The notes under the pieces: generated by a model
What the model saw: the letters and a program-made list of their open reading frames with translations, nothing else
The model's database searches: none
Told to the model about the DNA's origin: nothing
Shown: positions 6,801 to 20,149 of the stretch, one piece after another
Numbering within the stretch: position 1 is the first letter of the stretch
Layout: each line of letters begins with the position of its first letter
NCBI RefSeq assembly: GCF_004361855.1
Contig: NZ_SNWQ01000015.1
Span: 124,001 to 188,000, forward strand
Direction: 5' to 3'
Source of the DNA: Kribbella caucasensis
Lineage (GTDB): Bacteria; Actinomycetota; Actinomycetes; Propionibacteriales; Kribbellaceae
Length of the DNA: 64,000 nt
Program-made: the position numbers and the translations under genes

Positions 6801-7501
6801 GTGCCGTCCTTGAGCTGCCGCGGCGTCAAACCCTTGGTACGCAAGGGGATCCGCCACACGGGCGCCGCAGCCGGCCGATGCTTGAGGATGAAGTCGTTCT
6901 CGAAACCGTTGCGGCGGGCATCCAAGACAAGGTCTACACCCGGCTGTACGTCGGCGTACGTCGCCTTGGTCCCGTCGAGGGTCGGCTCGGGCAGCTTCCA
7001 GGGCGAGATCCACTCCACTCGCTGGCCCGCGCCGGTATCGGACGACGCGAACACCTGCCCGGTCGCCGCATTGCGTTTGCCCAGCTGCAGGCCACGTTGG
7101 TGACCGCGCGGCGCAACCGAACCGTCGATCCCCTTCTGCAAAGTCAGGTCGATGTCCTGCCATCCGCCCGAAGCGGTCTTGAACCGGATCGGCGCAGCAT
7201 GCGCGTCTGTGGTCATCGTGCCGTCCGGGTTCGACCAGGTGGTCGAGGTCTCGGTCCGCATCGACTCGACCTCGACCCGGCTGCCCTGCGACCGCGCCGT
7301 CACCGACGCCGACAGGACATCCGGACGCGAAACCACCTTCGGTTCCGCGGGTTTCGGGTCGGCCGACGGGACGGCGGCCTCGGCCGGGTCAGTGTGGTTC
7401 GCCTCAATCCCGGCTATTAGCAGAGCCAACGAGACCACCGCAGCGGTGAATCTCGGGAACTTCTGCAGGCGGGCACGCTGCGATCGATCCAGGACGAACA
7501 C
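839..7501 (-). CDS. Secreted RHS/YD-repeat polymorphic toxin
   Basis: A 2220-residue protein. A hydrophobic segment near residues 20-35 followed by an Ala-rich stretch fits Sec export. A DNRLRE-type domain lies near residues 318-480. Many YD repeats follow (for example RSYAYDSIGRLTQV and YTYDALGRTTTL), then the RHS-associated core ending RLYNSASGLFSSTDP, the hallmark that precedes a variable toxic tip. The tip is the last 143 residues and is extremely cationic (about 36 Lys/Arg against 5 Asp/Glu), with six Cys and many Trp. I recognise no toxin family in it. RHS shells are known to encapsulate and release such tips. The GTG at 7501 is preferred to a TTG six bases earlier because a GGGGG motif sits six bases before it. 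No obvious immunity gene follows. Confidence 0.9.
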   Translation of the reverse strand: MFVLDRSQRARLQKFPRFTAAVVSLALLIAGIEANHTDPAEAAVPSADPKPAEPKVVSRPDVLSASVTARSQGSRVEVESMRTETSTTWSNPDGTMTTDAHAAPIRFKTASGGWQDIDLTLQKGIDGSVAPRGHQRGLQLGKRNAATGQVFASSDTGAGQRVEWISPWKLPEPTLDGTKATYADVQPGVDLVLDARRNGFENDFILKHRPAAAPVWRIPLRTKGLTPRQLKDGTIEFVDAKNVVRSRIPIGFMWDAAIDGVTGEPSHKAAVNVTVEKVSPGKATLVIAPDAKWLLDPTRVFPVTVDPTYANTPVMATFDTFVQSGFTSDLSSTVDLRVGKNGTVTERSFLNFPTAPFIGKDIVSAHLSLMQYGSVTCTPTVVNVHSANPATTSTRWTAQPTTSIQVWGSVSAAKGFSSACAADRIYIPMTGLARFWSDVTYPTAGVALKAANEADANSWKRFYSTEGPADPYISLTWNRPPATPAKVNPSEAIAYRPIGEVFFGTIYSPNLRPWVKTKATDPDGNTVKYVYEFHDSATVGPNTLKATCTSSVYASGTEAGCRPSSDLPENTQIYIRAKTNDGRVDSPWTDWTALRIGSQPAAPPTIDCPPPYQDGTWQDSEPATDVTCTISATGTGYSAPGYIRVTVDGQPYPNYDEGGEAGRIKIRQSTDPAIAKTTVTIPQSVAGLHVISAVAETPAGRLSSARTHSFGWGGSGMTSPVANPRTTTTSTVRIAASGPPKGQSSSVAAHVRWRVSGYGNADDTVGWNEHATALTVNDKGAGGVSVSTLWDANSAKVDAFLDSDPNTAGMQPTTLNDRVPVLLDVQVCFTYTSSTQCTWSQTPNTTIQRLPHAFGNGFPTAAAGPGQVALWTGEFNTDATDVSVPGYTGDLSISRSHSTYAGPTNNIDGAFGQGWVAQFDGAEAGAAGMQVVDSTKVDGTIALVDGDGTSLIFESPSGLRRAGAAFELGAWVPADEDTELDGSKLTVSGTGASTMLSYTEDDGAVTTWKAAAAPTTSAPTLFRPETIAEPGIAAKTTFAYDGDGRVVRILSPAPPGVTCAAYDPTKPPLTGMNAGCRALRFVYTTIGATRVRLSEAWLDIYNPDKAGGAAMDSIKVAAYTYDVNALLTKVTDPRSNLSTEYTYNSANHLTSVKPAGQVPYQLNYVTVDQREKLDTVKRDRPAGDPAGGMATLARFVYDVPLSGAGLPDLSTTSVARWNQKAAPAFGFGVFGPDHPVAGTPTADDWQYADLQYTDAAGYTVNAAKYGAGDWQYTSTDYNEQGNVVRELDERALRSVIDESLPAGAAVDQLASVSVYNADVKNAAGTVVTPAGTLVTDTYGPSRFATLKDGSVRWVRTHTHFDFDEFAPNAGINPDTTLPYRLPTTETTSAFDPGAGTDQVISRTLTDYDPPVSGDPSGWALGLAGRVITDANPAGPRNETTGDSVKISRYDAEGRVIDTRQPNSSGADAGTTKTVYYTTAANSVIPECGAKPQWAGLICRTYPAAVPASSTGATPPLPTTTTSNFTYLLAPKTVVETSASVTRTLATTYLLDGRPQTTKTTVLGVSSSNPNTEKTTTYDSTTGQATAVTAKAADNTTTTVTTGFDTWGRATTYQPFGEQPTTTVYDAAGSVATVTDSNGSTRYTYDGTDAAGKAEHRGLPTKVEVTTAGSTWSSTGAYDAGGAMTVQKLPGGITQHNDLDNVGEPTGLRYTGQITTLNEDGSTTVDPDGPWLSWSLENDVSGQVTHEWTPDGTAFTGSTGDTPGDAIGYNRSYAYDSIGRLTQVQDRTAATTGVDVTDPTQAPGCVTRTYGFDGNDNRLTKSTAPAAADGACSTSGATTISRAFDTADRPVTGANGVGTYTYDALGRTTTLPASDAPKPADGDITLGYYDNDLARSITQGGSTTTFTLDTLDRRSVETVTDSSGSSQKVRHYADTTDNPTWVTEGTNTTRYAELIGDDLSLTVDQAGKGRLTLANTHGDVVSTIELPADGRPATTMGGWNSFDEYGSAQTIADTGVITYGWLGAKQRATSGADLILMGARLYNSASGLFSSTDPVDDGGANAYAYPTDPINQVDLDGKRWCWKLCRAGNEYVRWHWRNDRWGLDFLALLPLGKSIKAVRIARKAQKSKSLWKAIGGGCKGKLNCASAVTGNILGIQDAWNGRKDWWGGQKRFFGYLRPKFRRFGYKIWRRSRPYRSTVYSRAKRAANSYCRITTYRACWWR

Positions 7502-7614
7502 TGGCAACCCCCAAGGGCCTCACGCCGACCGGGGCGACTTCGACGACCGGGACAGATCGTCGAGCGGGTCAGCGACCCAACCATCGCCTACCCGGCCGTG
7601 CTCGTTACCCAAAC

Positions 7615-7628
7615 TGCAACTAGTTGCA
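7615..7628. promoter_or_regulatory. 14-bp palindrome in divergent intergenic region
   Basis: TGCAACTAGTTGCA is a perfect palindrome in the 306-base gap between the divergent RHS toxin and lipoprotein hydrolase genes. It is a plausible operator for either gene. Apart from this, the gap holds no gene that I can support. Confidence 0.35.
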
Positions 7629-7807
7629 ACCGAGCTTGACTTTCGGCCTTGGACTCCGGTTCCGCAGCGAGTCCGTCCGCCGCCGGACCACTCCCGGCCA
7701 GTGGCTCTCCGGCGTCCGCTTGGACCCGAGTCAGCACTTCACCGCATAGCGCGGTGTAGGGGATCCTGGTCCGGCTCACATTTGCTATAGCGCGCTTGGA
7801 GGCGTTC

Positions 7808-8581
7808 GTGCTGAATGTCGGTCGGTCCGCGGTACTCGTCCTCCTCCTCGCGCTCGGAATGGCCGGATGCGGGTCCGGGTCAGATCCAGCCGAGCCGGCA
7901 CCGACGTCGCCGACCTCGCCGACAACACCCAGCTCGGCCGGGATGCTGGCTGCGTGCACGCCCGAGGGCGCGAAGGCGTTCACTGCACCTGTTGCCGGCG
8001 GCACCGCGGTCAGCGGCCTGCAGCTGGGGGACGCCGCCCGGGCCGTCGTGTTGTCCTACGAGTGGGGCGGATCGCCCTGCGACTGGTTCGAAGTCGCAAC
8101 CGAGCTTGTCGCCCGCGGCTACCGGGTCGCACTGTGGGAATACGGCACCCTGACCGGCTTGGATCGAATCAAGGAACTGCAGGCCGTCGTGGACCAGGTC
8201 CGGGACGCCGGCGCGACCGAGGTTGTGCTGGCCGGCGGCTCGGTCGGCGGCTGCGTATCCATGATCGGCGGCTCCATGATCACCCCGGCAGTCTCCGGTG
8301 TCGTGGTGTTGAGCTGCGCTTCCTGGTACGACGTACAGCACCGGTTGCCGACCACGCCGCTGGCCGCCAAGCTCCGGTTGCCGACGCTATATCTAGCCGG
8401 TGACGGCGACACCCTGCCGGTCTCCGAGGTACGCAAGGACTTCGCCGCCATACCAGCCAAGGACAAGAAGCTGGTCATCGTCGCGGACTCCTCCGCCCAC
8501 GGCGTCGAGCTCCTCTCCAATACCGAGGCAGCGGCCACGAAACCAGCCCTGTTCGCCTTCCTGGACCGAGTCAGCCGCTGA
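7808..8581 (+). CDS. Lipoprotein alpha/beta-hydrolase
   Basis: The N terminus is a lipoprotein signal peptide with a lipobox ending GMAGC, then a Thr/Ser/Pro linker and an alpha/beta-hydrolase fold. The nucleophile elbow reads GGSVGG, with a candidate acid in AGDGDTLP and a candidate His in SSAHGVE, so the triad looks complete. It should be tethered to the outer face of the membrane. The substrate is unknown. The start is set at GTG 7808, with GGAGG five bases upstream. An in-frame TTG at 7796 overlaps that ribosome binding site and is less likely. The protein is 257 residues. It is transcribed away from the RHS toxin gene. Confidence 0.82.
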   Translation: MLNVGRSAVLVLLLALGMAGCGSGSDPAEPAPTSPTSPTTPSSAGMLAACTPEGAKAFTAPVAGGTAVSGLQLGDAARAVVLSYEWGGSPCDWFEVATELVARGYRVALWEYGTLTGLDRIKELQAVVDQVRDAGATEVVLAGGSVGGCVSMIGGSMITPAVSGVVVLSCASWYDVQHRLPTTPLAAKLRLPTLYLAGDGDTLPVSEVRKDFAAIPAKDKKLVIVADSSAHGVELLSNTEAAATKPALFAFLDRVSR

Positions 8582-8590
8582 CCAACGACA

Positions 8591-8755
8591 TGCCCACGAA
8601 GCTGGCTCGGCGGCGACGTCCCGATGTGGTGGTGCCACGCCGATGCATCCACGACGCGAACCTGGATCGAGCGCGCCGGTCTCGTGGTGGAGCAAGAAGA
8701 ATTCATTCCCGAAAGCCCCAGCGGCCACACCCTTCTCTGGGCCAGCCGAGCCTGA
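8591..8755 (+). pseudogene. 3' remnant of a SAM methyltransferase
   Basis: One frame, open without a start codon, translates to a stretch containing VPMWWCHADAST, then AGLVVEQEEFIPE and GHTLLWASRA before a TGA at 8753-8755. This resembles the C-terminal end of actinobacterial class I SAM-dependent methyltransferases (the WWSHADA...GH.LFWA pattern). Only about the last 50 codons survive. The 5' part is absent, because the preceding DNA is the end of the lipoprotein hydrolase. It is the first of two damaged genes immediately outside the tRNA-derived repeat at 9368. Confidence 0.6.
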
Positions 8756-8812
8756 GGCGCCTCCGCATCGGGACTATCGCATCGCGGTCAAACGCCCGAT
8801 AGGATCCGACGC

Positions 8813-9314
8813 GTGGATGATGCTCCTAGCTTGGCGACTTGGCTGGGCCGGCTGCAGGAAGCGTCCTTCAGCCAGGCCGGGCAGGCGGTGCGCAAGGCGT
8901 ACCCGCCGGAGCGGCGGATGACCGGACTACAGCTGGCCGAGTACCTGGGGCGCCGAACATATGCGCTCGCGTCCTCCACCCCGGCCCGACGGCCGTGCGC
9001 ACGCCGCACCGACGCTGTTCTCGGTATACGCGGAGGCGTTCTGGCTCCCCACGGTCGGCGGGGCGACCCGGCTCCGCAACGTACAGGCCCATCCGTGGCT
9101 CGCGCTGTCCGTACTCGAGGGCGAGCACGACACCCACGCCGCGGTGCTCACCGAAGGCCCGGCCGAGGTGCTGACGACGGTCCCGGCGTACGTCCAGGAC
9201 GTCACCGAGCTGCGCAACGGCGGCGGCAGCCTCGACTGGGCAGCGGCCTGGCTGCGATTGACCCCGCAGCGGCTATTCAGCTTCGCCGAGCGCTCCTGGC
9301 AGGAATCCTCGTAG
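8813..9314 (+). pseudogene. Frameshifted PPOX-class flavin enzyme
   Basis: The N-terminal part (from GTG 8813) carries MTGLQLAEYLGRRTYALASS. The remainder is in another frame and reads PDGRAHAAPTLFSVYAEAFW and onward to QESS. Together they match a pyridoxamine-5'-phosphate-oxidase-like split-barrel protein. Removing one C from the CCCC run at 8979-8982 restores the family motif STRPDGRAH, so a single-base insertion explains the break. It is either a true frameshift mutation or a base-calling error. Repaired, the protein would be about 166 residues, a normal length for the family. It would bind FMN or F420, but the substrate is unknown. Confidence 0.7.
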
Positions 9315-9367
9315 AACACGCGCTAGCACGGCCCGTCCAACACCGGCCGGAGTAACACAATCACAGC

Positions 9368-9411
9368 GGTGGGGCGGGTGGGACTCGAACCCACGACCCA
9401 GGGATTATGAG
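9368..9411. repeat. Orphan 44-bp tRNA 3'-half repeat (att-like)
   Basis: These 44 bases are identical and in the same orientation to 15905-15948, the part of the minus-strand tRNA(CAU) gene from anticodon loop to 3' end. The match stops inside the anticodon loop, a typical crossover region for tyrosine integrases. Bases beyond 9411 read like an unrelated, degenerate tRNA 5' half. I read this as the distal attachment site left by an integrated element. Confidence 0.75.
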
Positions 9412-9809
9412 AGCCATGGCAACCTCACCACTGGACGACTTGAGACTCCAGTAATGCGGGTTCTCATCTCATCTGCCCTCATCGCCAACTCTCTTTGACC
9501 CCATTTCGCGTCACGACTCGCGTCACGCGCGACCGCTCGCAGGAGGTCAGTGACACTCCCCCTCGGCCGGGCTGGCCGGCGCCGGATCCAAACCGTAGCC
9601 ATCGCCTTACAAGTCCGCTGCTGCACACCGACTCCGCTGTCTACAGGCCACAGACTGACCCAACGGCTGTCTGGGCTGCCATCTCTGGCATGTTCTGACT
9701 CCGGTTCATTGACAGATCCATTGACAGAGTTGTGGCTTGGGCAACATTGCGCCACGCGGGCGATCGCCGGCGCGGTCTGCGTCGGCGATCGCTTGTAGGT
9801 TCGCTCCGG
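9412..9809. other. Gene-free stretch with tRNA-like start
   Basis: I see no supportable gene in these 398 bases. Read on the minus strand, the first ~40 bases contain a D-arm-like GTCCAGTGGTGAGG joined to the tRNA 3'-half repeat, forming a chimeric pseudo-tRNA. A 10-base motif CATTGACAGA occurs twice, 14 bases apart, near 9703-9726. Confidence 0.4.
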
Positions 9810-10118
9810 TCAGGCTGGCCGGATAGCTGTGTGGTCGCGGCGGCGCTGTACGCCGAGGGTGACGCCCAGTCCGGCGCCGGCGAGGGCGATTCCGCCGAAG
9901 GCGCCGAGTGCGATCGAGGTGGCTTCCAGACCGTCGTCGTCAACAGTCTGGACAACCGGACTTGGCTCCGGCTTGACGTCGGCTGAGGCCGGTGCGGCCA
10001 TCACTGTGAGGGCGAGGCCGGCGCCCGCGCCCACTGCCAGCCGGATCAGCTTGGTCGCCATCGAGTTCGGTGTGGGAGATGTGGTCTTGGTTGCGTTCTT
10101 CGTGCTGTGTACAGACAT
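9810..10118 (-). CDS. Small exported membrane-anchored protein
   Basis: A 102-residue protein. A Thr/Ser-rich basic N terminus is followed by a signal-peptide-like segment ending MAAPASA (residues 40-46), an acidic Pro-rich ectodomain, a second hydrophobic helix near residues 67-90 and a terminal QRRR stop-transfer. It therefore looks like a small surface protein anchored by its C terminus. There is no LPXTG sortase signal. A GGAG lies about 10 bases before the ATG; Met20 is an alternative start. It is divergent from the BTAD-STAND-WD40 regulator and could be one of its targets. No family was recognised. Confidence 0.65.
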   Translation of the reverse strand: MSVHSTKNATKTTSPTPNSMATKLIRLAVGAGAGLALTVMAAPASADVKPEPSPVVQTVDDDGLEATSIALGAFGGIALAGAGLGVTLGVQRRRDHTAIRPA

Positions 10119-10210
10119 GACTGCTGCGCTCCTCTTGAGCGTCAAGGCGGGACTTCCTGTGCCGGTAGTCCGGGTACGCCTGACGGTCGGTGATCCCTTT
10201 GTCGCGCGCA

Positions 10211-10255
10211 GCGGTAACACGGCGACAAACGGCGGTGTCACGGCGGTAACGCGGC
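10211..10255. promoter_or_regulatory. Direct repeats upstream of SARP-type regulator
   Basis: GCGGTAACACGGC (10211-10223) recurs as GCGGTAACGCGGC (10243-10255), exactly 32 bases apart, about three helical turns. CGGCG cores at 10220, 10230 and 10241 add a 10-11 base periodicity. SARP/BTAD regulators classically bind direct repeats with ~11-bp spacing, so this is a candidate autoregulatory or target site. Confidence 0.4.
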
Positions 10256-10292
10256 CCTTGACCACGTGTGGTGACAGGTCGAGAGTCGAGAT

Positions 10293-13200
10293 GTGGGTAT
10301 CGCCGTTCTCGGCCCGCTCACGATCGAGGGGGAAGAAACAGTTCTCGGACGACGTGATCGCGTCGTGCTCGCCGCTCTCGCCGTACACCCAGGAGAGGTA
10401 GTCAGCGCGGAGGCACTCGCCGACGTGCTCTGGGACGACCAGCCACCGGCGACCTGGTCCAAGGTCGTGCAGGGCTGCGTGGTCCGGCTCCGCAAGCTGC
10501 TCGGCAGCCACACGATCGAGACCACGCCGCTGGGCTACCGGCTCGCCGTGCCGCTGGACGACATCGACGCCCAACGCTTCGAGCGCGCGGTCGGCCGTGC
10601 CCGTGAGTTGCTGGCCGCCGACGACCCGGAGCGGGCCGCGTTGGTGCTCGCTGATGCGCTGACGTTGTGGCGCGGCCGGCCGCTGATCGAGCTGGACGGG
10701 TGGGATCCGGGGCGGATCGAGGCGGCCCGGTTGACCGAGCTGCGCGAGACCGCGGAGGAGCTGTACGTGGATTCGGCGCTGCGCTCTGGCCAGCACGACC
10801 GGGTGCTGGCCAAAGCGCGGACGTTGGTGGCGGAGGCGCCGCTGCGGGAGCGGCGGTGGATCCTGCTTGCCACGGCGCAGTACCAGTCCGGCCGGCAGGC
10901 CGAGGCGCTGCGGACGTTGCGTCAGCTGCGCGACGTGCTGAGTCGTGAGCTCGGCCTGGATCCGGGGCCCGAGATCGACGTGCTGGAGCAGGCGATCCTG
11001 CATCAAGACCCCTCGCTGGTGGTGGCGAGTGCGTTGCCGGAGCCGAGTCCGGTCTGCCCGTACCGGGGTCTGCAGCCGTACGACGTGGACGACGCAGCCG
11101 AGTTCTTCGGCCGGGATGCCGACGTCGCGGCCGGCCTGCGGAAGCTCGCCGACACCTCGGTGCTGGCGGTGGTCGGCCCGTCTGGGTGCGGCAAGTCGTC
11201 GCTGGTGCGCGCCGGTGTCGCCGCCGCACTGCGGCGCGACGGGATGACCGTCGTGGTGATGACGCCCGGCGTGCACCCGGTCGCCACGTTTGCCACCGTG
11301 ATGCCCGGCCGGGGCTCGCCGCCGGCGTGCGTTGTGGACCAGTGCGAGGAGGTCTTCTCGCTGTGCCAGGACCCCTCCGAGCGCGCGGCGTTCCTGACCG
11401 CGCTGACGGCACACGCTGCCGTGGCGCCACTGATCTTGTCGTTCCGCGCGGATCGGATGGCCAACGTCTCCTCGCACCAGGGGTTCGCACGCCTGGTGGC
11501 CGACGGGATGTACGTGCTGGCGGCCATGACCGAACCGGACCTGCGGTCCGCGATCGAGGAACCGGCCCGGCTGGCGTCGCTCGTGGTCGAGCCAGGGCTG
11601 GTCGACGTGCTGGTCACCGAGATCGCCGGCCAACCCGGCGCGCTGCCGCTGATGTCGCACGCACTCGCCGAGACCTGGCAGCGCCGCGAGGGCCGCACCC
11701 TCACCGTGGCCGGCTACCGCGACACGGGCGGGATCCGTGGTGCCGTGGCGCAGTCGGCCGAACGGGCCTACGAGCGGGTCCCGGCCGAGCAGCGCTCGGT
11801 GTTGCGCGACCTGTTGCTGCGTCTGGTCACGCCCGGCCCGGAAGGCGAGCCGGTTCGTAGCCGGCTGCCCAGACGTCTGGTCGTCACCAGCCCTGCGAAC
11901 GATGCGATGATCGACCTGTTGGTCGACGCTCGGCTGGTGACCAGCGACGACGGAGCGGTCGAGCTCGCCCACGAGTCACTCGCCCGGGCCTGGCCCCGGC
12001 TGCGCGGGTGGCTCGACGACGACCTCGAAGGCCAACGCGTCCTGCACCACCTGGCGGTCGCCGCCGACTCCTGGGACGGTCTCGGCCGCCCGGACAGCGA
12101 GCTGTACCGCGGCGTACGCCTGGCCAAGGCCCTGGACTGGCAGGACAACAGTCAGCCCACGCTGACCGCCACCGAGCGGAACTTCCTCGCCGCGAGCAAG
12201 CGGCTCTCCGAGGCCGAGCTGCATGCCGCCGAGGACATCGCCCGGCGCCAGATCCGGGTCAATCGACGCCTCAGCGCCGCATTGAGCACGGCGGCCGTGC
12301 TCCTCGCCGGTGCACTCATCGCCGGCCTGGTCGCCGTCAACCAGGCCGAACGCGCCGACCAGCAGGCAACAGCAGCCCAGCGGGCTGCGACCAGCGAGCT
12401 CGCACGTCGGGTCGGGACTCGAGCGCTCCTCACCGAAGGCATCAGCCACTCGCTGCTGCTCGCGGCGCACGGGGCGCGCCTGGACGATTCCGCGGAGACC
12501 CGCGCCAACCTGCTCGCGGCGGTGAGCAAGCGCCCGCTGCTGGTCCGGTCGTTCCCTGGCCGCGGCGACGATGTGGAAGGTATTTCGGTATCCCCTGACG
12601 GGCGCCGGATCGTCTCCGGTGACGACGACGCGCGGTTCCACCTGTACGACGCCGGCACCGGCCGCGTGCTCAAGACCGTCGTCCTTGGACCGGACCTGGA
12701 GGCGCCGGTGTACGGCGAAGCCCACTTCAGCCCGGACGGCAGGTTCGTCGTCGCATCGGCGATCTACCCGCCGTATGCGCCCCCACCGCCTGACCAGCCG
12801 CTCCTTCGACTGTTGGACGCGGAGACGCTCGAGGAGGTGTCGCCGCCGCTCGCGTTCCCGAGCACGAAGAAGCTCACGCGCCATGGGTTGGCGTTCAGCG
12901 CCGATGCGCGGTACCTCGCGGCCTCATTCCAGGAAGGCACCGACAACGCTCCGGCGGCGAGGTCCGCTCCGAGCTTCGCCCTCGTGTGGGACCTCAAGGC
13001 GACCGACCGCCTCCCTCGCAGAGTGAACCTGCCGATGTGGATTCAGGGCATCGCTCTCAGTCCGGACGGCCGCATTCTGTACAGCATGCAGCCACTCACG
13101 GCGTACGACGTCGCCACGGGGGCACAGCTTTGGCGGCGCCCGGATCTCACCGGCTTTATGCGCATCGACGTCACCCGTGACGGCAAGCTGATCGCTCTTC

Positions 13201-14564
13201 AACTGTTCAACAAGGATTACACGGACGGGAGCGTGATCGGACTTGTCGACGCGCGCACAGGCAGGACGGTCAGGCTGCTGCCCGACCACATCGACGAGCC
13301 GCGCGCACTGGCCTTCTCTCGTGACGGCACCGTGCTCGGCTCCGTCTCGCACAACGGCGAGGCCATCGTCTGGGACGCTGCCACCGGCCGACCCCGCCAA
13401 CGGATCAAGTCGTTCGAGATCTTGTGGGGGGTCGACTTCAGTCCGGACGGCCGGACGTTGTACACCGGCGGCGACGAGGGCATCGTCCGGGCCTACGATC
13501 TGTCCGGACAGCAGCGGTACCTGCAGGGCAGCCAGCCGATGCCCGCGCGCACGTACGCGCATGTCCTCGCATCGAGAGACGGCAGGCGAACGGCCTACAT
13601 CTGGAGCGACGCCGCGACCGCGTGGATGAGTTTCGCCGACTCGACCACCGGCGCTCGCAGCGCACCCGTGCGACTGGACATCGATCCGGTGAGGTCCCTG
13701 GCTACCTGGCATCCGGACAGCCGTCACTTCGCCGCCGTCGACCGGGCGGGTGTCATCGCGATCATCGACTCCGTGACGAACCGGGTGATCGTGCGGCGCC
13801 AGGTCGTCGAGAAGGAAATCGAGTCGATCGCGTATGTCGAGCGCGGGAACCGCATCGCAGTCACCGACACCGACCGCTGGACGACCATGCTCGACGCGCG
13901 CGGGCTGCGGCCTAGCGGCTCGGCCATCGATGTCGGAGGGGACACCAAGTGGTTTGACTGGCCGGGTCAGTACTGTTGCGCTGCGGTGTCGCCGGATGGG
14001 CAGCAAATGGTCCTGTTCGAGCATTCCCCGGACGCCGCCAAGGCACAATGGCGCGTCATCCGCGTCGCGACCGGCGAGGTCGTCGCAGACGGCGAGGTGA
14101 TCCTCAACTTGTTCGACGCGTCGTTCTCACCAGACGGCCGCAGGATCGCCGTCACCGGGGTCGGCGGCGAGCTCGTGGTCATCGATGTGGCAGCCGGAGC
14201 CGAGCTGCGCGCACCGACGACCGGCCACGGCGGCAATGGTGAGTTCGTCCGGTTCTCGCCGGACGGCACGAGGATCGTGTCGGGAGCGTCGGATGGCACC
14301 GTGAGCCTGTGGGACACCCACACCCTCGACCTCCTCGGCACCGTCACGACAGCAACCGGCAGCGAACCCGCCCTCGTCTCACCGACCTTCACCCAGGGCA
14401 ACGACATCGTGACCATCGCCGCGTACGACGGGAACGCATACCGGTGGGACACACGCATCGATCGGTTGATGGACTTCGCCTGCAGCATGGCCGGTCGCAA
14501 CCTCACCGATGAGGAGTGGACGCAGGCTTTCGGCAATCGTCCCTACGAGAAGACCTGCCCGTGA
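10293..14564 (+). CDS. AfsR-like BTAD / STAND / WD40 transmembrane regulator
   Basis: A 1423-residue protein. Residues 1-90 form an OmpR-type winged helix and about 95-243 a bacterial transcriptional activation (BTAD) domain, together the SARP module. CPYRGLQPYD (255-264) opens an nSTAND1-type NTPase with P-loop GPSGCGKS (295-302) and a Walker-B-like VVDQCEE. One hydrophobic helix lies near residues 660-680, and the remaining ~700 residues are WD40-like repeats (recurring SPDGR blocks). Topology suggests DNA binding and NTPase in the cytoplasm and a propeller outside the membrane, unlike soluble AfsR. It starts at GTG 10293. The downstream gene content is degraded, so no target operon is obvious except the divergent small exported protein. 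Confidence 0.85.
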   Translation: MGIAVLGPLTIEGEETVLGRRDRVVLAALAVHPGEVVSAEALADVLWDDQPPATWSKVVQGCVVRLRKLLGSHTIETTPLGYRLAVPLDDIDAQRFERAVGRARELLAADDPERAALVLADALTLWRGRPLIELDGWDPGRIEAARLTELRETAEELYVDSALRSGQHDRVLAKARTLVAEAPLRERRWILLATAQYQSGRQAEALRTLRQLRDVLSRELGLDPGPEIDVLEQAILHQDPSLVVASALPEPSPVCPYRGLQPYDVDDAAEFFGRDADVAAGLRKLADTSVLAVVGPSGCGKSSLVRAGVAAALRRDGMTVVVMTPGVHPVATFATVMPGRGSPPACVVDQCEEVFSLCQDPSERAAFLTALTAHAAVAPLILSFRADRMANVSSHQGFARLVADGMYVLAAMTEPDLRSAIEEPARLASLVVEPGLVDVLVTEIAGQPGALPLMSHALAETWQRREGRTLTVAGYRDTGGIRGAVAQSAERAYERVPAEQRSVLRDLLLRLVTPGPEGEPVRSRLPRRLVVTSPANDAMIDLLVDARLVTSDDGAVELAHESLARAWPRLRGWLDDDLEGQRVLHHLAVAADSWDGLGRPDSELYRGVRLAKALDWQDNSQPTLTATERNFLAASKRLSEAELHAAEDIARRQIRVNRRLSAALSTAAVLLAGALIAGLVAVNQAERADQQATAAQRAATSELARRVGTRALLTEGISHSLLLAAHGARLDDSAETRANLLAAVSKRPLLVRSFPGRGDDVEGISVSPDGRRIVSGDDDARFHLYDAGTGRVLKTVVLGPDLEAPVYGEAHFSPDGRFVVASAIYPPYAPPPPDQPLLRLLDAETLEEVSPPLAFPSTKKLTRHGLAFSADARYLAASFQEGTDNAPAARSAPSFALVWDLKATDRLPRRVNLPMWIQGIALSPDGRILYSMQPLTAYDVATGAQLWRRPDLTGFMRIDVTRDGKLIALQLFNKDYTDGSVIGLVDARTGRTVRLLPDHIDEPRALAFSRDGTVLGSVSHNGEAIVWDAATGRPRQRIKSFEILWGVDFSPDGRTLYTGGDEGIVRAYDLSGQQRYLQGSQPMPARTYAHVLASRDGRRTAYIWSDAATAWMSFADSTTGARSAPVRLDIDPVRSLATWHPDSRHFAAVDRAGVIAIIDSVTNRVIVRRQVVEKEIESIAYVERGNRIAVTDTDRWTTMLDARGLRPSGSAIDVGGDTKWFDWPGQYCCAAVSPDGQQMVLFEHSPDAAKAQWRVIRVATGEVVADGEVILNLFDASFSPDGRRIAVTGVGGELVVIDVAAGAELRAPTTGHGGNGEFVRFSPDGTRIVSGASDGTVSLWDTHTLDLLGTVTTATGSEPALVSPTFTQGNDIVTIAAYDGNAYRWDTRIDRLMDFACSMAGRNLTDEEWTQAFGNRPYEKTCP

Positions 14565-14710
14565 CCCGCCGGGTGAAGCGGTGCCGCGGTTGTTACTCGA
14601 CACGGGAGGTGTTGAACGCGCACGAGAGACCGACAGCGACAACGGCGAGTGATTCGGGGTCGCGCCAGACAGTGCCGCCGAGCTTTCTCGATCGCATCGC
14701 GAGGCGGGCC

Positions 14711-14785
14711 GCTTCGTCGTGATCGAACCGACGACCTTCTCATTACGAGGAAGACTTTCAGCGTTGCAGACGCCCTCTACCAGCG
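14711..14785 (-). other. Decayed tRNA-like sequence
   Basis: Read on the minus strand, the order is a D-arm-like GCTGGTAGAG (14775-14784), an anticodon region containing CTCGTAA, and a T-arm GGTCGTCGGTTCGAT with one stem mismatch. No acceptor stem or proper anticodon stem can be formed, so it is not a functional tRNA. It is the second tRNA fragment inside the 44-bp-repeat segment and may be a scar of an older integration. Confidence 0.4.
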
Positions 14786-14788
14786 TCT

Positions 14789-15250
14789 TTGCTGACACAG
14801 CCGCCCGCACCACGGGCCGATTCCACCATGGGCTTCCAGGATTTCGCACCACGTGTGGCACCACGCGGGACGCCATCTCCAGTAGCTCTGGCAAGTCGGC
14901 TCTTGCCGGACCATCGCGGTTCGCCGGTTTCCTGGAGCCACCACTGGGTCTGGGGTGGCGGCCGCGGGAGCCGTCCGATCTTGAACTCAACCGCATGGCA
15001 CCATGCCTGGCTCTCGGTCGGCCACGCTGCCGGAGTAGATCCCGACAACTACCGCGTCTGGATCCACGAAGGCCCGGAAGCGACCGCGCCGGCCACGGTC
15101 GGCCACACGATCGCCTTGACCAACTGGAGCCTCTACGCACTGCCGCAGCGCAACCTCGAAGGGGTCCTCGCGCACGAGGTGGCGCACCACTTGGCCCAGC
15201 CACAGAGGGTCTCGCTGCTCGGCCAGGGCAGCCAGCTCGGCCTCAGTTGA
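14789..15250 (+). pseudogene. Truncated HEXXH peptidase fragment
   Basis: The 3' half of this open frame encodes a stretch ending [13 protein letters not shown], where HEVAH is a zinc-peptidase HEXXH motif. It is preceded by YRVWIHEGPEATAPATVG and [11 protein letters not shown], resembling the catalytic start of M48-type membrane proteases. The frame stops about 15 residues after the motif, so the third zinc ligand and all transmembrane helices are missing. The first ~45 residues have no recognisable similarity and are probably read-in sequence. I treat it as a gene remnant. Confidence 0.5.
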
Positions 15251-15284
15251 CTCGCAGGTCGGGCTGTCGGGGCAGAATCAACGT

Positions 15285-15764
15285 GTGAAGAAACCTGAGG
15301 CCGACCCCGTCGTCGCGCGCAACCGCAAGGCTGCCCACGACTACCATCTGGGCGAGTCCTGGGAGGCCGGGATCGTGCTGCAGGGTCCGGAGGTGAAGGC
15401 ACTCCGCGCCGGGCGGGCGTCCCTGGTCGGCGGCTTCGCCGCTATCGAGGACCGGGAGATCTGGCTGCACGGCGTGCACATCCCGCAGTACTCCCAGGCC
15501 CGCTGGTTCAACGACGGCTCACGCCGCAAGCGGAAGCTGCTGCTGCACCGTGCCCAGATCGACAAGATCGAACGCAAGGTCAACGAGAGCGGGCTGACGA
15601 TCGTCCCGGTGACCCTCTACTTCAAGGATGGTCGCGCGAAGGTCGAGATCGCCCTGGCCCGCGGCAAGAAGACCTGGGACAAGCGGCACGCGCTCGCCGA
15701 GCGCGAGGCAAGCCGAGAGGCCGAGCGTGCGGTCAGCCGCCGACGCAAGGGTCGCCCGGACTGA
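15285..15764 (+). CDS. smpB: SsrA-binding protein SmpB
   Basis: A 159-residue protein matching SmpB over its full length: [18 protein letters not shown], then [46 protein letters not shown] and a basic Arg-rich tail. SmpB binds tmRNA and delivers it to stalled ribosomes for trans-translation. It starts at GTG 15285. Unusually, no ssrA (tmRNA) gene fits in the 140 bases between it and the tRNA, and ftsEX are not upstream. It lies inside the 44-bp-repeat segment. It could be the sole copy displaced by a rearrangement, or a second copy carried by the element. Confidence 0.9.
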
Positions 15765-15903
15765 TCAGCGGTGCGTACGATCGCGCCCATGAGGCCGTGG
15801 AGCTCCAGTACACGGTTCGAGACTAGGTGCCCCCACCTCCAAATTCGCGCGTGCGTCACCCGAGCGGCACGGCCGCGTACAAGTCAGCACTTGCCCGATC
15901 TTG

Positions 15904-15980
15904 TGGTGGGGCGGGTGGGACTCGAACCCACGACCCAGGGATTATGAGTCCCCTGCTCTAACCGGCTGAGCTACCGCCCC
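15904..15980 (-). tRNA. tRNA with CAT anticodon (Met or Ile2)
   Basis: Read on the minus strand: acceptor GGGGCGG pairing with CCGCCCC, D-arm GCTC...GAGC, anticodon loop CTCATAA, T-arm GTGGGTTCGAGTCCCAC, discriminator A and an encoded CCA (15904-15906). The CAT anticodon marks elongator tRNA-Met or the lysidine-modified tRNA-Ile2; I cannot tell which. It is not initiator-type because the acceptor starts with a paired G. Its 3' half is duplicated at 9368. Confidence 0.93.
15905..15948. repeat. 44-bp direct repeat within tRNA (att-like)
   Basis: The tRNA-internal partner of the orphan copy at 9368-9411. The two are identical for 44 bases and diverge immediately on both sides. Confidence 0.8.
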
Positions 15981-16066
15981 GGGCGTCTGCGGATCGCGAC
16001 GCGTTGTCGGGAGATGGTATCCGGGTGGGGGTGGGACTGGGTGGGGTGGGCTGGGAGGATGGTGGG

Positions 16067-16588
16067 GTGAGACTTCGTCGTGTAGCGGTGCCGGGTGAGG
16101 TGGTTGAGGCGGTGCGGGTGGCCGCTGGGGGGCGGGAGGACATCCTGGCGTCGGTGCAGTTGGCTGATGGGAGCTGGGTCGCGGGGTCGCGGGCGGCTGT
16201 GTATCTGCCGGAGGGTGACAAGTTGCGGCGGGTCGGGTGGGAGGCGATAGAGCGGGCCGCGTGGGACTCCGAGGCGTCGGTGTTGCGGGTGTACGAGACG
16301 ACCGCGTTCGGGACGCCGTTGCGGAGTACCGAGCTGGCGGTGGACGACCCGGGGCGCTTCGGACAGTTGCTGCGCGAACGCGTGGACGCGAGTGTGCTGG
16401 TGCAGCGTCACGTACCCCTGGTCGGGAAGAAGGGTGTGCGCATCGTGGGGCGGCGGAATCCGGCGGATCGGGACGCGCCGGTGACGTGGAACTTCGTTCT
16501 GGACAAGGGATTAGAGCCCGATCGGCCGGGGTTGATCGAACAGGCCGAGATGGCGCTGAAGGCGGTCCGGGACGAGTTCGGCATCTGA
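16067..16588 (+). CDS. Conserved actinobacterial hypothetical protein
   Basis: A 173-residue soluble protein beginning RLRRVAVPGEVVEAVRVA and containing a WEAIERAAWDSEASVLRVYE block, a pattern I associate with an uncharacterised actinobacterial family of about 170 residues. GTG 16067 is chosen because GGGAGGA lies about eight bases upstream. The open frame extends 21 codons further upstream, but that stretch is Gly/Val-rich and overlaps the tRNA flank. No catalytic motif or membrane helix is visible. It sits between two tRNA genes. Confidence 0.75.
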   Translation: MRLRRVAVPGEVVEAVRVAAGGREDILASVQLADGSWVAGSRAAVYLPEGDKLRRVGWEAIERAAWDSEASVLRVYETTAFGTPLRSTELAVDDPGRFGQLLRERVDASVLVQRHVPLVGKKGVRIVGRRNPADRDAPVTWNFVLDKGLEPDRPGLIEQAEMALKAVRDEFGI

Positions 16589-16634
16589 GCCGGAAGCGAT
16601 CCCAGTGGCCGGTCTGCAGGCGGGAATCCCGTTT

Positions 16635-16662
16635 TTGTAGTTCGGCGCGGGCCTGCTAACCT
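16635..16662 (+). promoter_or_regulatory. Candidate tRNA-Asn promoter
   Basis: TTGTAG (16635-16640) and TAACCT (16657-16662) are separated by 16 bases and lie 44 bases before the tRNA-Asn gene. They are a reasonable match to housekeeping -35 and -10 elements. Confidence 0.4.
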
Positions 16663-16706
16663 AATCCGGTCCTCAGGGATCCGGGGGGGGCACGAAACAC
16701 CACTGA

Positions 16707-16779
16707 TCCCGCGTAGCTCAATTGGCAGAGCAGCCGGCTGTTAACCGGCAGGTTACTGGTTCGAGTCCAGTCGCGGGAG
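16707..16779 (+). tRNA. tRNA-Asn (GTT)
   Basis: Acceptor TCCCGCG pairs with CGCGGGA, the D-arm is GCTC...GAGC, the anticodon loop CTGTTAA gives anticodon GTT, the T-arm is ACTGGTTCGAGTCCAGT and the discriminator is G. CCA is not encoded. Confidence 0.95.
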
Positions 16780-16940
16780 CAAACCAACGAAGCCGGTTCG
16801 GAACTACGAACCGGCTCTTTTCATGCCCGGCCACGCTGCGGTGTCCCACCGACCCCATGTGTCCGGCCGTACTGCGGTGTCCGGCGGGCCCGGGCGGATC
16901 GGCCGGGCCCGCGGACGCGGAGTACTGGTTGGTCCAAAGG

Positions 16941-17087
16941 TCAGTTGTTGCGGTTGTCCTTCCGGCGTTCCAGGGCTCGCTGGATGCGGTGCTGCGGTTG
17001 ACCCGTCAGCTTGGCGATCAGGGGCACGCGGAACTTGTACGCCGCGACGGCGCCCACCACGAGCACGAGCAGGATGAACCAGCCCAT
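16941..17087 (-). CDS. Small membrane protein, 48 aa
   Basis: A 48-residue protein starting MGWFILLVLVVGAVAAYKF, a single N-terminal transmembrane helix, then a basic cytoplasmic tail (HRIQRALERRKDN). AAGGGA sits about eight bases before the ATG, and the frame shows the codon bias of its neighbours. It is just downstream of the sigma-factor gene on the same strand. Function unknown. The length, helix placement and ribosome binding site support a real short gene. Confidence 0.6.
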   Translation of the reverse strand: MGWFILLVLVVGAVAAYKFRVPLIAKLTGQPQHRIQRALERRKDNRNN

Positions 17088-17187
17088 CGGAGTTCCCTTC
17101 AGTCGGACCTGCATCCATCATCCCCCGCCCGCGGTAACAACCACTCAGTCAAACCCCTGAGCGCCCCCTGGTTTCGCGGCACCGAGC

Positions 17188-18069
17188 TCAGGCCACGTAG
17201 TCACTCAGAGTGCGGAGGCAGCGTTTTCGGAGCGCGCGGAGAGCGTCAGCCTCCAGAACGCGGACCCGATCGAGCGGAAGACGCAACAAGCCGGCCGTCT
17301 CCTCCAGGGTCGAGGGCGTGGTGTCGTGCAGGCCATAGCGGTACCGCAGAACGTCCTGCTGGTCGTCCTCGAGGAACTCCAGCTGGTGGTTGAGATCGCG
17401 GCGCAGCGCGGCTCGGTACGTGAGGGTCTCGTCGTCGACAGGCTGGTCGGCGTCGATCGGGTCGAGGGTCTCGGGGCGAAGCCGCCAGGCCCGGGCGCGT
17501 TCGACCCGGGCGACCGTGAGGGACGCGCCGGCGGCGATCTCGGACGTCGTGGGTTCGCGGCCGAGGCGTTGGGTCAGGTCGTGGTGGACGGTCGCGACCC
17601 GGCCGGCGTCGGCGTACGCCTGGGCGGGCATTCGGACCAGCCGGGAACGGTCGGAGATCGCCCTGCCGATCGACTGGCGGATCCACCAGATCGCGTACGT
17701 CGAGAAGCGGTGGCCGAGCTTGTGGTCGAAGCGCTCGACCGCACGCATCAGGCCGAGATTGCCCTCCTGGATCAGGTCGAGCAGGGACAGCCCCTTCCCT
17801 GTGTAGCGCTTGGCGAGCGAGACGACCAGCCGAAGGTTGCCCTCGATCAGCCGGCGGCGGGCCGCCTCCCCCAGCTGGGCGACGGCGCGAAGGTCGGCCC
17901 GGTCGGCCAGTGCTGCAGCTCCCAGCCGGTCCGTGGCCAGCAGTCCGGCTTCGATCCAGTACGAGAGTTCGTTGACCTCCTCCAGGGTCAGTAGGTCGTG
18001 CCGTCCGATGTCGCGCAGGTAGGCGACGAAGGCGGAGATGTCCGCGGGTTCGCAATCCAGGTCGGCCAT
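17188..18069 (-). CDS. Group 2 (HrdB-like) sigma-70 factor
   Basis: A 293-residue sigma factor lacking a long region 1.1. Region 1.2 is near DISAFVAYLRDIGRHDLL. Regions 2.1-2.4 are RLVVSLAKRYTGKGLSLLDL, IQEGNLGLMRAVERFD and YAIWWIRQSIGRAISD, which contain the -10 recognition helix. Region 3 follows, and region 4 has a recognition helix near TLEETAGLLRLPLDRV. These directly resemble principal sigma factors but are shorter, which fits a nonessential group 2 factor that redirects RNA polymerase to housekeeping-like promoters under stress or stationary phase. GAGGGG is five bases from the ATG. It lies just downstream of dnaG on the same strand, separated by 166 bases that must contain its promoter. 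Confidence 0.88.
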   Translation of the reverse strand: MADLDCEPADISAFVAYLRDIGRHDLLTLEEVNELSYWIEAGLLATDRLGAAALADRADLRAVAQLGEAARRRLIEGNLRLVVSLAKRYTGKGLSLLDLIQEGNLGLMRAVERFDHKLGHRFSTYAIWWIRQSIGRAISDRSRLVRMPAQAYADAGRVATVHHDLTQRLGREPTTSEIAAGASLTVARVERARAWRLRPETLDPIDADQPVDDETLTYRAALRRDLNHQLEFLEDDQQDVLRYRYGLHDTTPSTLEETAGLLRLPLDRVRVLEADALRALRKRCLRTLSDYVA

Positions 18070-18235
18070 GGTTCCCCTCTACTTCCTTGTGAAGGGATGG
18101 TGCCGTGAAAACCCGCGCCGGAACGGACCGATTTCAGATCGGTGGACAACTACCCCAGGCGACTGGCCAGTAACAGAGAGTCTGTGGATGACGCGACAGC
18201 CGACAGCCCGAACAGCTGTATGCTCCCCCCAAAAC

Positions 18236-20149
18236 TCAGAGCGCGCCGGAGATCGCCTTCTCGCGGAGCTCAGCCCGATAGCGTTCCAACGCGATCAGCT
18301 CACCGAACATCCGGTTGTAATCGTCGGTCCGGTCGATCGGGTTGGTGCGCTGAAGCTTGGACTTGAGGTCGGCGATCCGGCGCAGGCAGGTGAGTTCCTG
18401 CAGGCGGGCCAGCAGCGCGCGGGCGTACGTCTCGTCGGGGTCGCGGCCCAGTCGCAGCGGGTCGACCGCCAGCGCGCTGACCACCGCGGCCGCCGGATCG
18501 TTGCCCATGGCATCGCGAACGGCGACCACCCACGCCTCGCCCGGCGCGGCGGTCACCGGCCCGCCGGCCTTGGCCATCGCGGCCCGGACCGCGGCCAGCC
18601 ACGGATGAGTGAAGTCCTGGTCGTCGAGCTCCTCAAAAGCGGCGCCGACCAGAGAAGGATGCTGCATCGCGACCTTCAGCACGTCCCACTCGATCGTGAA
18701 CCGCTGATCCCGCGGCGACGGCAGATCAACCCTCGGCGGCGGCGCAGCAGCCTCGCCCTGGGCGGCAGCAGCAACCACCACAGGTCCACGCTCAGCAGGT
18801 CCACGCTCAGCAGGACGCGAGGCCGCCCGATGCACCTCCGACCGCACCTGCTCGACATCCATCCCGAGATGCCCGGCCAGCTCCCGGGTGAAGGCGTCCA
18901 CCTTCGACCGGTCACGAATGCTGATCACCAGCCGGGCCGCGTCGCGCAGCGCGTCGATCCGCGTGTCGGCCCGGTCCAGGTCGTACTTCGTCAGCACGTT
19001 CCCCAGCACGAACCGGTACAGCGGCACCCGTCGCCCGATCAGCTCGCGGACCGCCGCGTCGCCCTTCTGCAGCCGCACATCGCACGGGTCGAGCCCGTCC
19101 GGTTCGACCGCCACATACGTCTGCGACGCGAACGCCTGATCCCCCTGGAACGCCTTCAGCGCCGCCCGCTGACCCGCCTCGTCCCCGTCGAAGGTGAAGA
19201 TCACCTCGCCCCGGAACTGATCATGGTCGAGCAGCAACTGCCGCAGTACCCGCGCGTGGTCCTCGCCGAACGACGTCCCACACGTCGCGACAGCGGTCTG
19301 TACGCCGGCCAGGTGGCAGGCCATCACATCGGTATAGCCCTCGACCACGACGGCCTGCCGCCCCTTGGCGATCTCCCGGCGGGCCAGATCCACGCCGTAC
19401 AGGACCTTGGACTTCTTGTAGATCGGCGTTTCCCCCGTGTTGAGGTACTTCGCCTCGATCCGGTCGTCGTCGAAGATCCGCCGGGCACCGAAGCCGATCA
19501 CGTCACCGCTGGCGTCCCGGATCGGCCACATCAGCCGGCCACGGAACCGGTCGTACAACCCCCGCTGACCGTCGGCGGCCAACCCCGACGCGACCAGCTC
19601 GGCATTGTTGAACCCGCGACCGCGCAGATGCGCGACCAGTTGCTCACCACCCCGCGGCGAGAACCCGACCCCGAAGTGCGAAGCCGCGTCCCGATCGAAA
19701 CCGCGCTTGTCCAGGAACTGCCGACCCAGCATCGCGTCGGACGATTCGAAGAGCAGTGACGCATAGAACTCCGCCGCCACCTTGTGCGCCTCGACCAGCC
19801 GCGGCCGTTGGTTGCTCTGCGATCGAGGCATCGGCGCGCCGGACTCGTCGTACCGGAGCTGGACGCCGACCTTCGCGGCCAGCGTCTCGACGGCCTCGTG
19901 GAAGGTGATCTGATCGATCTTCTGGATGAAGTCGATGACGTCGCCGCCCTCTTGGCAGCCGAAGCAGTAGAAGAAACCGCGCGCCGGGGTGACGTTGAAC
20001 GACGGCGACTTCTCGTCGTGGAACGGGCAGAGTCCTTTCAGCGATCCGCCACCGGCGTTCTTCAAGGTCACATAGGAGCCGACGATGTCGTCGATCCGGG
20101 CCCGTTCGCGAACGAGCGCGATGTCCTCTTCCTTGATCCGGCCTGCCAC
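18236..20149 (-). CDS. dnaG: DNA primase DnaG
   Basis: A 637-residue primase. The CHC2 zinc finger has C41, H44, C62 and C65 (CPFHDEKSPSF, then FFYCFGC). The N-terminal catalytic core contains EAKYLNTGETPIYKKS, the TOPRIM acidic motifs are in VVVEGYTDVMACH and TFDGDEAGQ, and a DnaB-binding-type C-terminal domain follows residue ~450. It synthesises RNA primers at the replication fork. The linker near residues 425-460 is Pro/Ala-rich with a short duplicated PAERG block, within normal variation. The dgt gene is nearby, an arrangement common in actinobacteria, although here a reductase and a regulator lie between them. Confidence 0.97.
   Translation of the reverse strand: MAGRIKEEDIALVRERARIDDIVGSYVTLKNAGGGSLKGLCPFHDEKSPSFNVTPARGFFYCFGCQEGGDVIDFIQKIDQITFHEAVETLAAKVGVQLRYDESGAPMPRSQSNQRPRLVEAHKVAAEFYASLLFESSDAMLGRQFLDKRGFDRDAASHFGVGFSPRGGEQLVAHLRGRGFNNAELVASGLAADGQRGLYDRFRGRLMWPIRDASGDVIGFGARRIFDDDRIEAKYLNTGETPIYKKSKVLYGVDLARREIAKGRQAVVVEGYTDVMACHLAGVQTAVATCGTSFGEDHARVLRQLLLDHDQFRGEVIFTFDGDEAGQRAALKAFQGDQAFASQTYVAVEPDGLDPCDVRLQKGDAAVRELIGRRVPLYRFVLGNVLTKYDLDRADTRIDALRDAARLVISIRDRSKVDAFTRELAGHLGMDVEQVRSEVHRAASRPAERGPAERGPVVVAAAAQGEAAAPPPRVDLPSPRDQRFTIEWDVLKVAMQHPSLVGAAFEELDDQDFTHPWLAAVRAAMAKAGGPVTAAPGEAWVVAVRDAMGNDPAAAVVSALAVDPLRLGRDPDETYARALLARLQELTCLRRIADLKSKLQRTNPIDRTDDYNRMFGELIALERYRAELREKAISGAL

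Follow-up and report, generated by a model that had tools for sequence, protein, structure and literature searches.

The window analyzed here is a 64-kb stretch of the Kribbella caucasensis genome (positions 124001-188000 of contig C15, genome G000). Within it, a segment at 9368-15948 is bounded by a tRNA gene and a partial copy of that gene, and carries a gene for the SsrA-binding protein, SmpB. The tRNA gene, an intact tRNA-Met(CAU) on the minus strand at 15904-15980 (ARAGORN; Rfam score of 73.5 bits), represents the target gene and the intact end of the segment (left attachment site, attL). A repeat search found a direct repeat pair, 9368-9418 and 15905-15955, with 94% identity over 51 nt and a spacing of 6537 bp, the first 44 nt of which are identical and in the same orientation. 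One 44-bp copy (15905-15948, minus strand) lies within the intact tRNA gene, while its 44/44 match at 9368-9411 (minus strand) is an orphan 3' half of the tRNA, which we read as the right attachment site (attR). The repeat extends from the 3' end of tRNA-Met through the anticodon and stops within the anticodon loop, just as an earlier note on this DNA had described, and an exact match of this length is far too unlikely to have arisen by chance. The sole other direct pair between 9300 and 16000 was 38 nt at 76% identity inside the regulator gene described below, and no terminal inverted repeats of 20 nt or more were found around the smpB gene in that interval. The segment thus has the rebuilt tRNA gene and the direct repeat of an insertion at a tRNA 3' end.

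Next to the orphan is a conserved element end, or attachment-site (att) arm, at 9412-9531 (no strand assigned). It is followed by an open reading frame (ORF) at 9810-10118 on the minus strand, encoding a small protein that is possibly secreted or wall-anchored (a hit to the LPXTG anchor, under cut-off, with an E value of 0.031), and by a plus-strand gene at 10293-14564 encoding a 1423-aa AfsR/SARP-like regulator with BTAD, nSTAND1 and WD40 domains (PF20703, E value 3.4e-104; PF03704, E value 1.3e-35; PF00400). SARP models scored far under their cut-offs. This is the protein that the earlier note called a giant transmembrane regulator; the transmembrane stretch was seen by eye only. A block 88% identical to the regulator gene exists in G017, far from the tRNA-Met of that genome.

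A search with a library of tRNA 3' ends identified a second attachment-site remnant, an orphan 3' fragment of tRNA-Thr(CGT) at 14722-14749 (minus strand, 28/28 bases), which adjoins an att arm of the tRNA-Thr type at 14750-14884 (no strand assigned) that aligned with the arms beside the tRNA-Thr fragments of G020. The window sequence at 14708-14964 is an 84% DNA match to contig C1 of G020, where a fuller version exists: an intact tRNA-Thr(CGT), an smpB gene of the window type, a 45/45 orphan 3.5 kb away and the same arm. Between the tRNA-Thr orphan and the smpB gene of the window, at approximately 14956-15220 on the plus strand, is a fragment of an M48 peptidase gene (PF01435, E value 7.7e-4, just under cut-off) that is 65-71% identical to residues 162-249 of the M48 peptidase of an element in G024. 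The tRNA-Thr and M48 fragments are probably the "two gene or tRNA fragments" of the earlier note. The segment is therefore composite, with a tRNA-Thr(CGT) attachment remnant inside a tRNA-Met-bounded segment. The shared arm and the M48 fragment may link it to conjugative elements, of which an intact close parent was not found.

Integrases, element ends and flanks in related genomes

The earlier note had proposed insertion by a tyrosine integrase that no longer remains. A profile search found no PF00589 integrase on contig C15 at an E value of 0.001 or less, and the integrase family that uses tRNA-Met had no match within the 64-kb window at an E value of 1 or less. The search for integrase remnants that the note had suggested was likewise negative within the window, and the ORF adjoining the orphan (9405-9755) had no Pfam hit. 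The integrase gene, by which tRNA islands are also recognized, is thus absent from the window segment and present in relatives. We read the tRNA-Met neighborhood in 20 of the 37 other Kribbella genomes searched (loci L081-L100), for most of them up to approximately 16 kb on the 3' side of the tRNA, and for 4.4 kb in G020. In three of the 20 (G011, G021 and G024), a whole tyrosine integrase with a C-terminal GntR domain (PF00589 plus PF00392) begins 104 bp from the 3' end of tRNA-Met. Integrase pieces occur at -82 to -106 from the tRNA in six more (G002, G009, G010, G013, G018 and G014), those of G018 (E value 0.006) and G014 (E value 0.085) being weak.

In G024, the element measures 37 kb from tRNA-Met to its orphan. 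In addition to the GntR-fused integrase it encodes a TrwC-type relaxase with a helicase, a type IV coupling protein, a Prim-Pol protein and the M48 peptidase, and its gene content is that of a conjugative element. It shares the target tRNA, the distal arm and a related M48 gene with the window segment, which differs in having no integrase, relaxase or coupling protein. When ten proteins of this element (TrwC, TraG, Prim-Pol, integrase, M48 and five others) were searched against the 64 kb at an E value of 1e-4 or less, M48 alone gave a match; other transfer systems were not sought.

Six genomes (G007, G011, G016, G018, G021 and G024) have an orphan 3' half of tRNA-Met located 3' of the tRNA, and G020 has such orphans on other contigs. 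The window-type arm is beside orphan repeats in these seven genomes and in G050. In G018, G020, G007 and G050, to which the window arm was aligned, the likeness continues for about 120 bp beyond the repeat, and the arm was also matched in G024 and G011. Since the orphan is no more than a tRNA fragment and the window has no integrase, the orphan could in principle be a relic of a tandem tRNA-Met duplication and not of site-specific insertion. A repeat that ends in the anticodon loop and continues into an arm common to the orphans of other species, together with integrases at the matching position in relatives, makes that origin highly improbable. The shared arms and the integrases at a fixed distance from tRNA-Met instead support the tyrosine-integrase insertion that the earlier note had put forward.

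Beyond the orphan is a pyridoxamine-oxidase-like (PNPOx) gene region at 8799-9336 on the plus strand (PF01243, E value 2.7e-6 on the ORF at 8961-9314). In the window this region lies 6.6 kb from tRNA-Met, whereas matches to it on the 3' side of that tRNA were 54.6 kb away in G024, 57.1 kb in G009 (over 170 bp) and 67.4 kb in G021; the interval from PNPOx to tRNA-Met thus differs widely in length. In G050, the PNPOx gene immediately adjoins the window-type arm, and the tRNA fragment there is shortened. The PNPOx region of the window appears to be out of frame with that of G050 near 9000, indicating a pseudogene or a sequencing error on either side. None of the 38 genomes had a PNPOx match directly beside a tRNA-Met of known position.

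Flank comparisons among the relatives were consistent with insertion, and we do not count them as proof of an empty site. The outer flank of G007 resembles the sequence directly after the tRNA in G005, G012 and G023, where the stretch read had no orphan. This likeness may reflect tandem accretion instead of an empty site, because an integrase fragment lies approximately 0.4 kb beyond the G007 orphan. G016 was rejected as an empty site because its outer flank is like the arm between tRNA and integrase in G002 and G010, both of which have integrase fragments. The distance from the tRNA to the start of a flanking gene (cluster c14) is 3.3-5.2 kb in G005, G012 and G023; in G016, which has a 2.6-kb segment, it is 4.5 kb, and in G007, whose segment is 8.8 kb long, it is 13.6 kb. 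The ambiguity of the flanks leaves the insertion reading unaffected, as the arms and integrases are its main basis. On the other side of the segment (16052-20149) and in relatives, the order of tRNA-Met, a sigma-factor-like gene and dnaG, the latter two named by eye, differs among species. Farther out in the window, an ORF of 2222 aa at 839-7507 appeared RHS-repeat-like by eye.

A cis-mobilizable element (CIME), as defined in PMC5704250, derives from an ICE or IME, keeps attL and attR, has lost integration and transfer genes, and is mobilized in cis after accretion with an ICE. The window segment likewise keeps attL and attR (44/44, with the intact tRNA on one side and the orphan and shared arm on the other), is without integration genes and without transfer genes of the G024 type, and it sits where related conjugative elements also insert. 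It departs from a CIME in its composite make-up, with the remnant of another tRNA's attachment site inside. From these features, the segment is best read as a CIME-like, integrase-less remnant. If attL and attR sufficed, with the integrase of an incoming element acting in trans, it might instead be a minimal cassette that is still mobile. The exact repeats of the window fit such a cassette, as does the recurrence of tRNA-plus-repeat segments without this integrase family: 2.6 kb in G016 and 8.8 kb in G007 at tRNA-Met, and 3.5 kb with an smpB gene at tRNA-Thr in G020:C1, with a 45/45 repeat and an integrase piece just outside. However, the nearest relative of the tRNA-Met integrase family in the window genome has only 30% identity, the tRNA-proximal end is, by eye, without the ctctgacctg motif that occurs beside integrase-bearing elements, and the internal tRNA-Thr fragment is degraded. 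We regard current mobility as quite unlikely.

A second smpB gene and its surroundings

The smpB gene of the segment (15285-15764, plus strand; PF01668) encodes a protein that scores 199.3 bits against a cut-off of 130 bits for the NCBIfam equivalog, and 172.1 against 119.1 bits. The canonical smpB of this genome is found at G000:C3:245399, with ftsE and ftsX upstream and ssrA, the gene for tmRNA, 0.8 kb downstream. The earlier note was thus correct that smpB is part of the cargo, with the refinement that this gene is a genus-wide second copy and not the canonical one near ssrA; we refer to it as smpB2. In G000, a PF00589 integrase gene directly adjoins ssrA on contig C3 (L061:8611-10238), and ssrA is therefore probably also occupied by an element. 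In PMC3146451, the vinyl chloride islands of Dehalococcoides are described as integrating at ssrA. There, as here, the gene used as integration site is a tRNA or tRNA-like, and the canonical ssrA of Kribbella is just downstream of smpB; here, in contrast, a copy of smpB is itself inside the island and the target is tRNA-Met.

All 38 Kribbella genomes searched contained smpB2. Two copies were present in G020 and G041, and a decayed extra piece in G021 and G051. Among 109 other genomes of the order, only three, all of one genus, had two SmpB genes. SmpB2 is 50.6-61.1% identical to the canonical SmpB of the genus, and ten positions differed consistently between 31 SmpB2 and 62 canonical sequences. 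It also differs in its variable location away from ssrA. As in the SmpB of trans-translation, SmpB2 scores above the equivalog cut-off and retains the GKKxxDKR tail. The median dN/dS for smpB2 was 0.125 (325 pairs), indicating that the gene is under purifying selection. In the smpB tree, which was midpoint-rooted and thus has an arbitrary root, smpB2 formed one clade that included a gene from a Nocardioidaceae assembly, with a support of 100/99 from a rough, unsettled bootstrap. The Nocardioidaceae member had no ftsX or ssrA within the fetched stretch. A tmRNA match above cut-off was seen in 37 of the 38 genomes, one each among the matches listed. No separate tmRNA partner for smpB2 was recognized, the weaker matches listed being mostly tRNA-sized. 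A phage origin was rejected, all 67 matches in phage records having <60% identity, as was a plasmid origin, with one of 65 plasmid records at 60-80% identity; a close source was not found. A literature search confined to open-licence papers, including passages of PMC2635970, yielded no report of a second Kribbella SmpB.

We compared the surroundings of 40 smpB2 copies from the 38 genomes, leaving out the outside assemblies L189 and L192. Context genes were called with a home-made GC-position filter, and the 40 neighborhoods fell into 15 groups (two shared genes required) or 18 groups (three shared genes required), a grouping that depends on filter and threshold. The DNA common across groups is essentially the ORF and about 16 bp upstream, in which an AGAAT box occurs no more than 16 nt before the start in 37 of the 40 copies. 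In the window, this putative core promoter is at 15269-15284 on the plus strand, with AGAAT at 15274-15278. Because the shared DNA is limited to this unit, it suggests that smpB2 may be expressed as a leaderless transcript and be a portable unit. Close pairs share more, as do the window and G020:C1 over 14708-14964 and 15080-15818. A 159-bp stretch of the window at 24-182 resembles DNA located 2-9 kb from smpB2 in five genomes with a tRNA-Arg(CCT) context.

Many smpB2 copies are near tRNA genes. Compared to 40 control windows taken at fixed coordinates (0.5, 3.5, 6 and 7 Mb) on the first contig of 10 genomes, which are not random draws, a tRNA gene or orphan 3' fragment occurred within 10 kb of 26/40 smpB2 copies and in 1/40 controls (p 6e-10), and within 2.5 kb of 13/40 copies and in 0/40 controls. 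When counted by context group, 11 of 18 had a tRNA or fragment within 10 kb, against the same 1/40 controls (p 1.4e-6). The tRNAs were Arg(CCT), Arg(ACG), Arg(TCT), Thr(CGT), Met(CAT) and Lys(TTT), plus two tRNA-Asn genes and an array in G020:C1. That array (G020:C1:219001-239000, L063) is unusual, with thirteen tRNA genes in about 5 kb, located 2.5-8 kb from the second smpB2 copy. In G018:C3 (L064, L147 and L278), several tRNA-Lys(TTT) 3' fragments occur every 5-10 kb around smpB2, like tandem inserted elements. Any of the ten G024-element proteins was found within the fetched stretch of about 10 kb per side in five of the 40 copies (G000, G003, G020 copy b, G022 and G042) and in none of the 40 controls. 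The earlier note had held that smpB next to this tRNA without the orphan repeat in most relatives would speak against insertion; smpB2 was in none of the 20 tRNA-Met stretches read. Elsewhere, smpB2 is approximately 21 kb from tRNA-Met in G006, and 4.7 kb from it, in the opposite orientation, in G045.

We gauged core identity by ftsX and canonical smpB in 25 genomes. The smpB2 genes of G000, G018 and G020 were 94.5-95.4% identical in DNA sequence compared to 87.6-90.3% for ftsX, and the pairs among these three genomes gave the three largest residuals of 300. Because smpB2 identity exceeds that of ftsX, these data are consistent with recent transfer of smpB2 among the three.

The movement and retention of smpB2 could also be explained without element carriage, if smpB2 were a plain ancestral duplicate whose locus had been broken by unrelated insertions and rearrangements near tRNA hotspots. 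The smpB2 groups partly track those of canonical smpB, and 20 of the 40 copies (three shared genes required) are in two semi-stable neighborhoods, at tRNA-Arg(CCT) and tRNA-Arg(ACG). In contrast, the six kinds of tRNA near the copies, the extra copies of G020 and G041, the decayed ones of G021 and G051, and the identity outliers that hint at transfer are at odds with plain duplication, which we consider unlikely.

Proposed carriage between islands and retention by selection

We favor, with a probability of roughly 80%, the reading that integrative elements targeting tRNA genes left 9368-15948 behind as a composite, decayed remnant, and that smpB2 has been carried from island to island and kept by selection. 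In this scheme, a GntR-fused tyrosine integrase would have inserted its conjugative element at the 3' end of tRNA-Met(CAU), which restored an intact tRNA gene and placed a 44-bp copy at the distal boundary. Later deletion and recombination would have removed the integrase and transfer genes, and recombination would also have added a piece of a related element that once used tRNA-Thr(CGT). This piece may have brought in smpB2 with its own core promoter within 16 bp. We propose that smpB2 is present in all 38 genomes at varying addresses because such elements would ferry it between islands and selection would retain it. Carriage by elements is most likely the cause of the smpB2 moves.

Several observations weigh against this reading. 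An exact empty site, an intact tRNA without the 9412-15904 segment, to which the earlier note had looked for support, was not found when the left flank (7520-9367) was searched in the 38 genomes. PNPOx lies 17-19 kb farther out than the orphan in G024 and G021, and we therefore treat it as an anchor beyond the far side of the island and not as its direct flank. On the tRNA-Met side, dnaG is 3' of the tRNA in 10 of the 20 loci of relatives and 5' of it in the window, G020 and G024; in the remaining eight loci it is beyond the sequence read. The region has therefore also been rearranged, and the order of tRNA-Met and dnaG is inverted or otherwise rearranged among species. In G020, smpB2 is probably in the same island as tRNA-Met, with contigs C15 and C9 of that genome joined by assumption. 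No tRNA or fragment was found within 10 kb of 14 of the 40 smpB2 copies, including one K. catacumbae copy and those of G001, G008 and G016. Of the 14, the G001 and G021 copies are less than 10 kb from a contig end on one side or both, and those of G008 and G016 have only tRNA-His and tRNA-Ala, farther away than 10 kb. The five copies near any G024-element protein are a small share of the 40, and the integrase of that element is near only two. Lastly, many smpB2 sequences group like canonical smpB, and many copies have therefore been long in place.

A bolder and rather doubtful extension of carriage and selection is that conjugative elements brought SmpB2, as a ribosome-rescue factor, into a genus that may now depend on it. 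One copy would be kept while islands supply new ones and old ones decay, leaving the gene with no fixed address. The integration site at which it was first captured may have been ssrA, which is tRNA-like and lies near smpB.

The island remnant itself is ordinary, and the smpB2 pattern is the surprising part: a quality-control gene of translation that is universal in 38 genomes, shares only a core promoter among its copies and occupies many surroundings, often tRNA attachment sites. A core-looking gene beside a tRNA may thus not be the housekeeping copy. The pattern raises the question of why one genus has two SmpB proteins and one recognizable tmRNA, and makes smpB2 a testable case of a mobile-element gene becoming universally kept.

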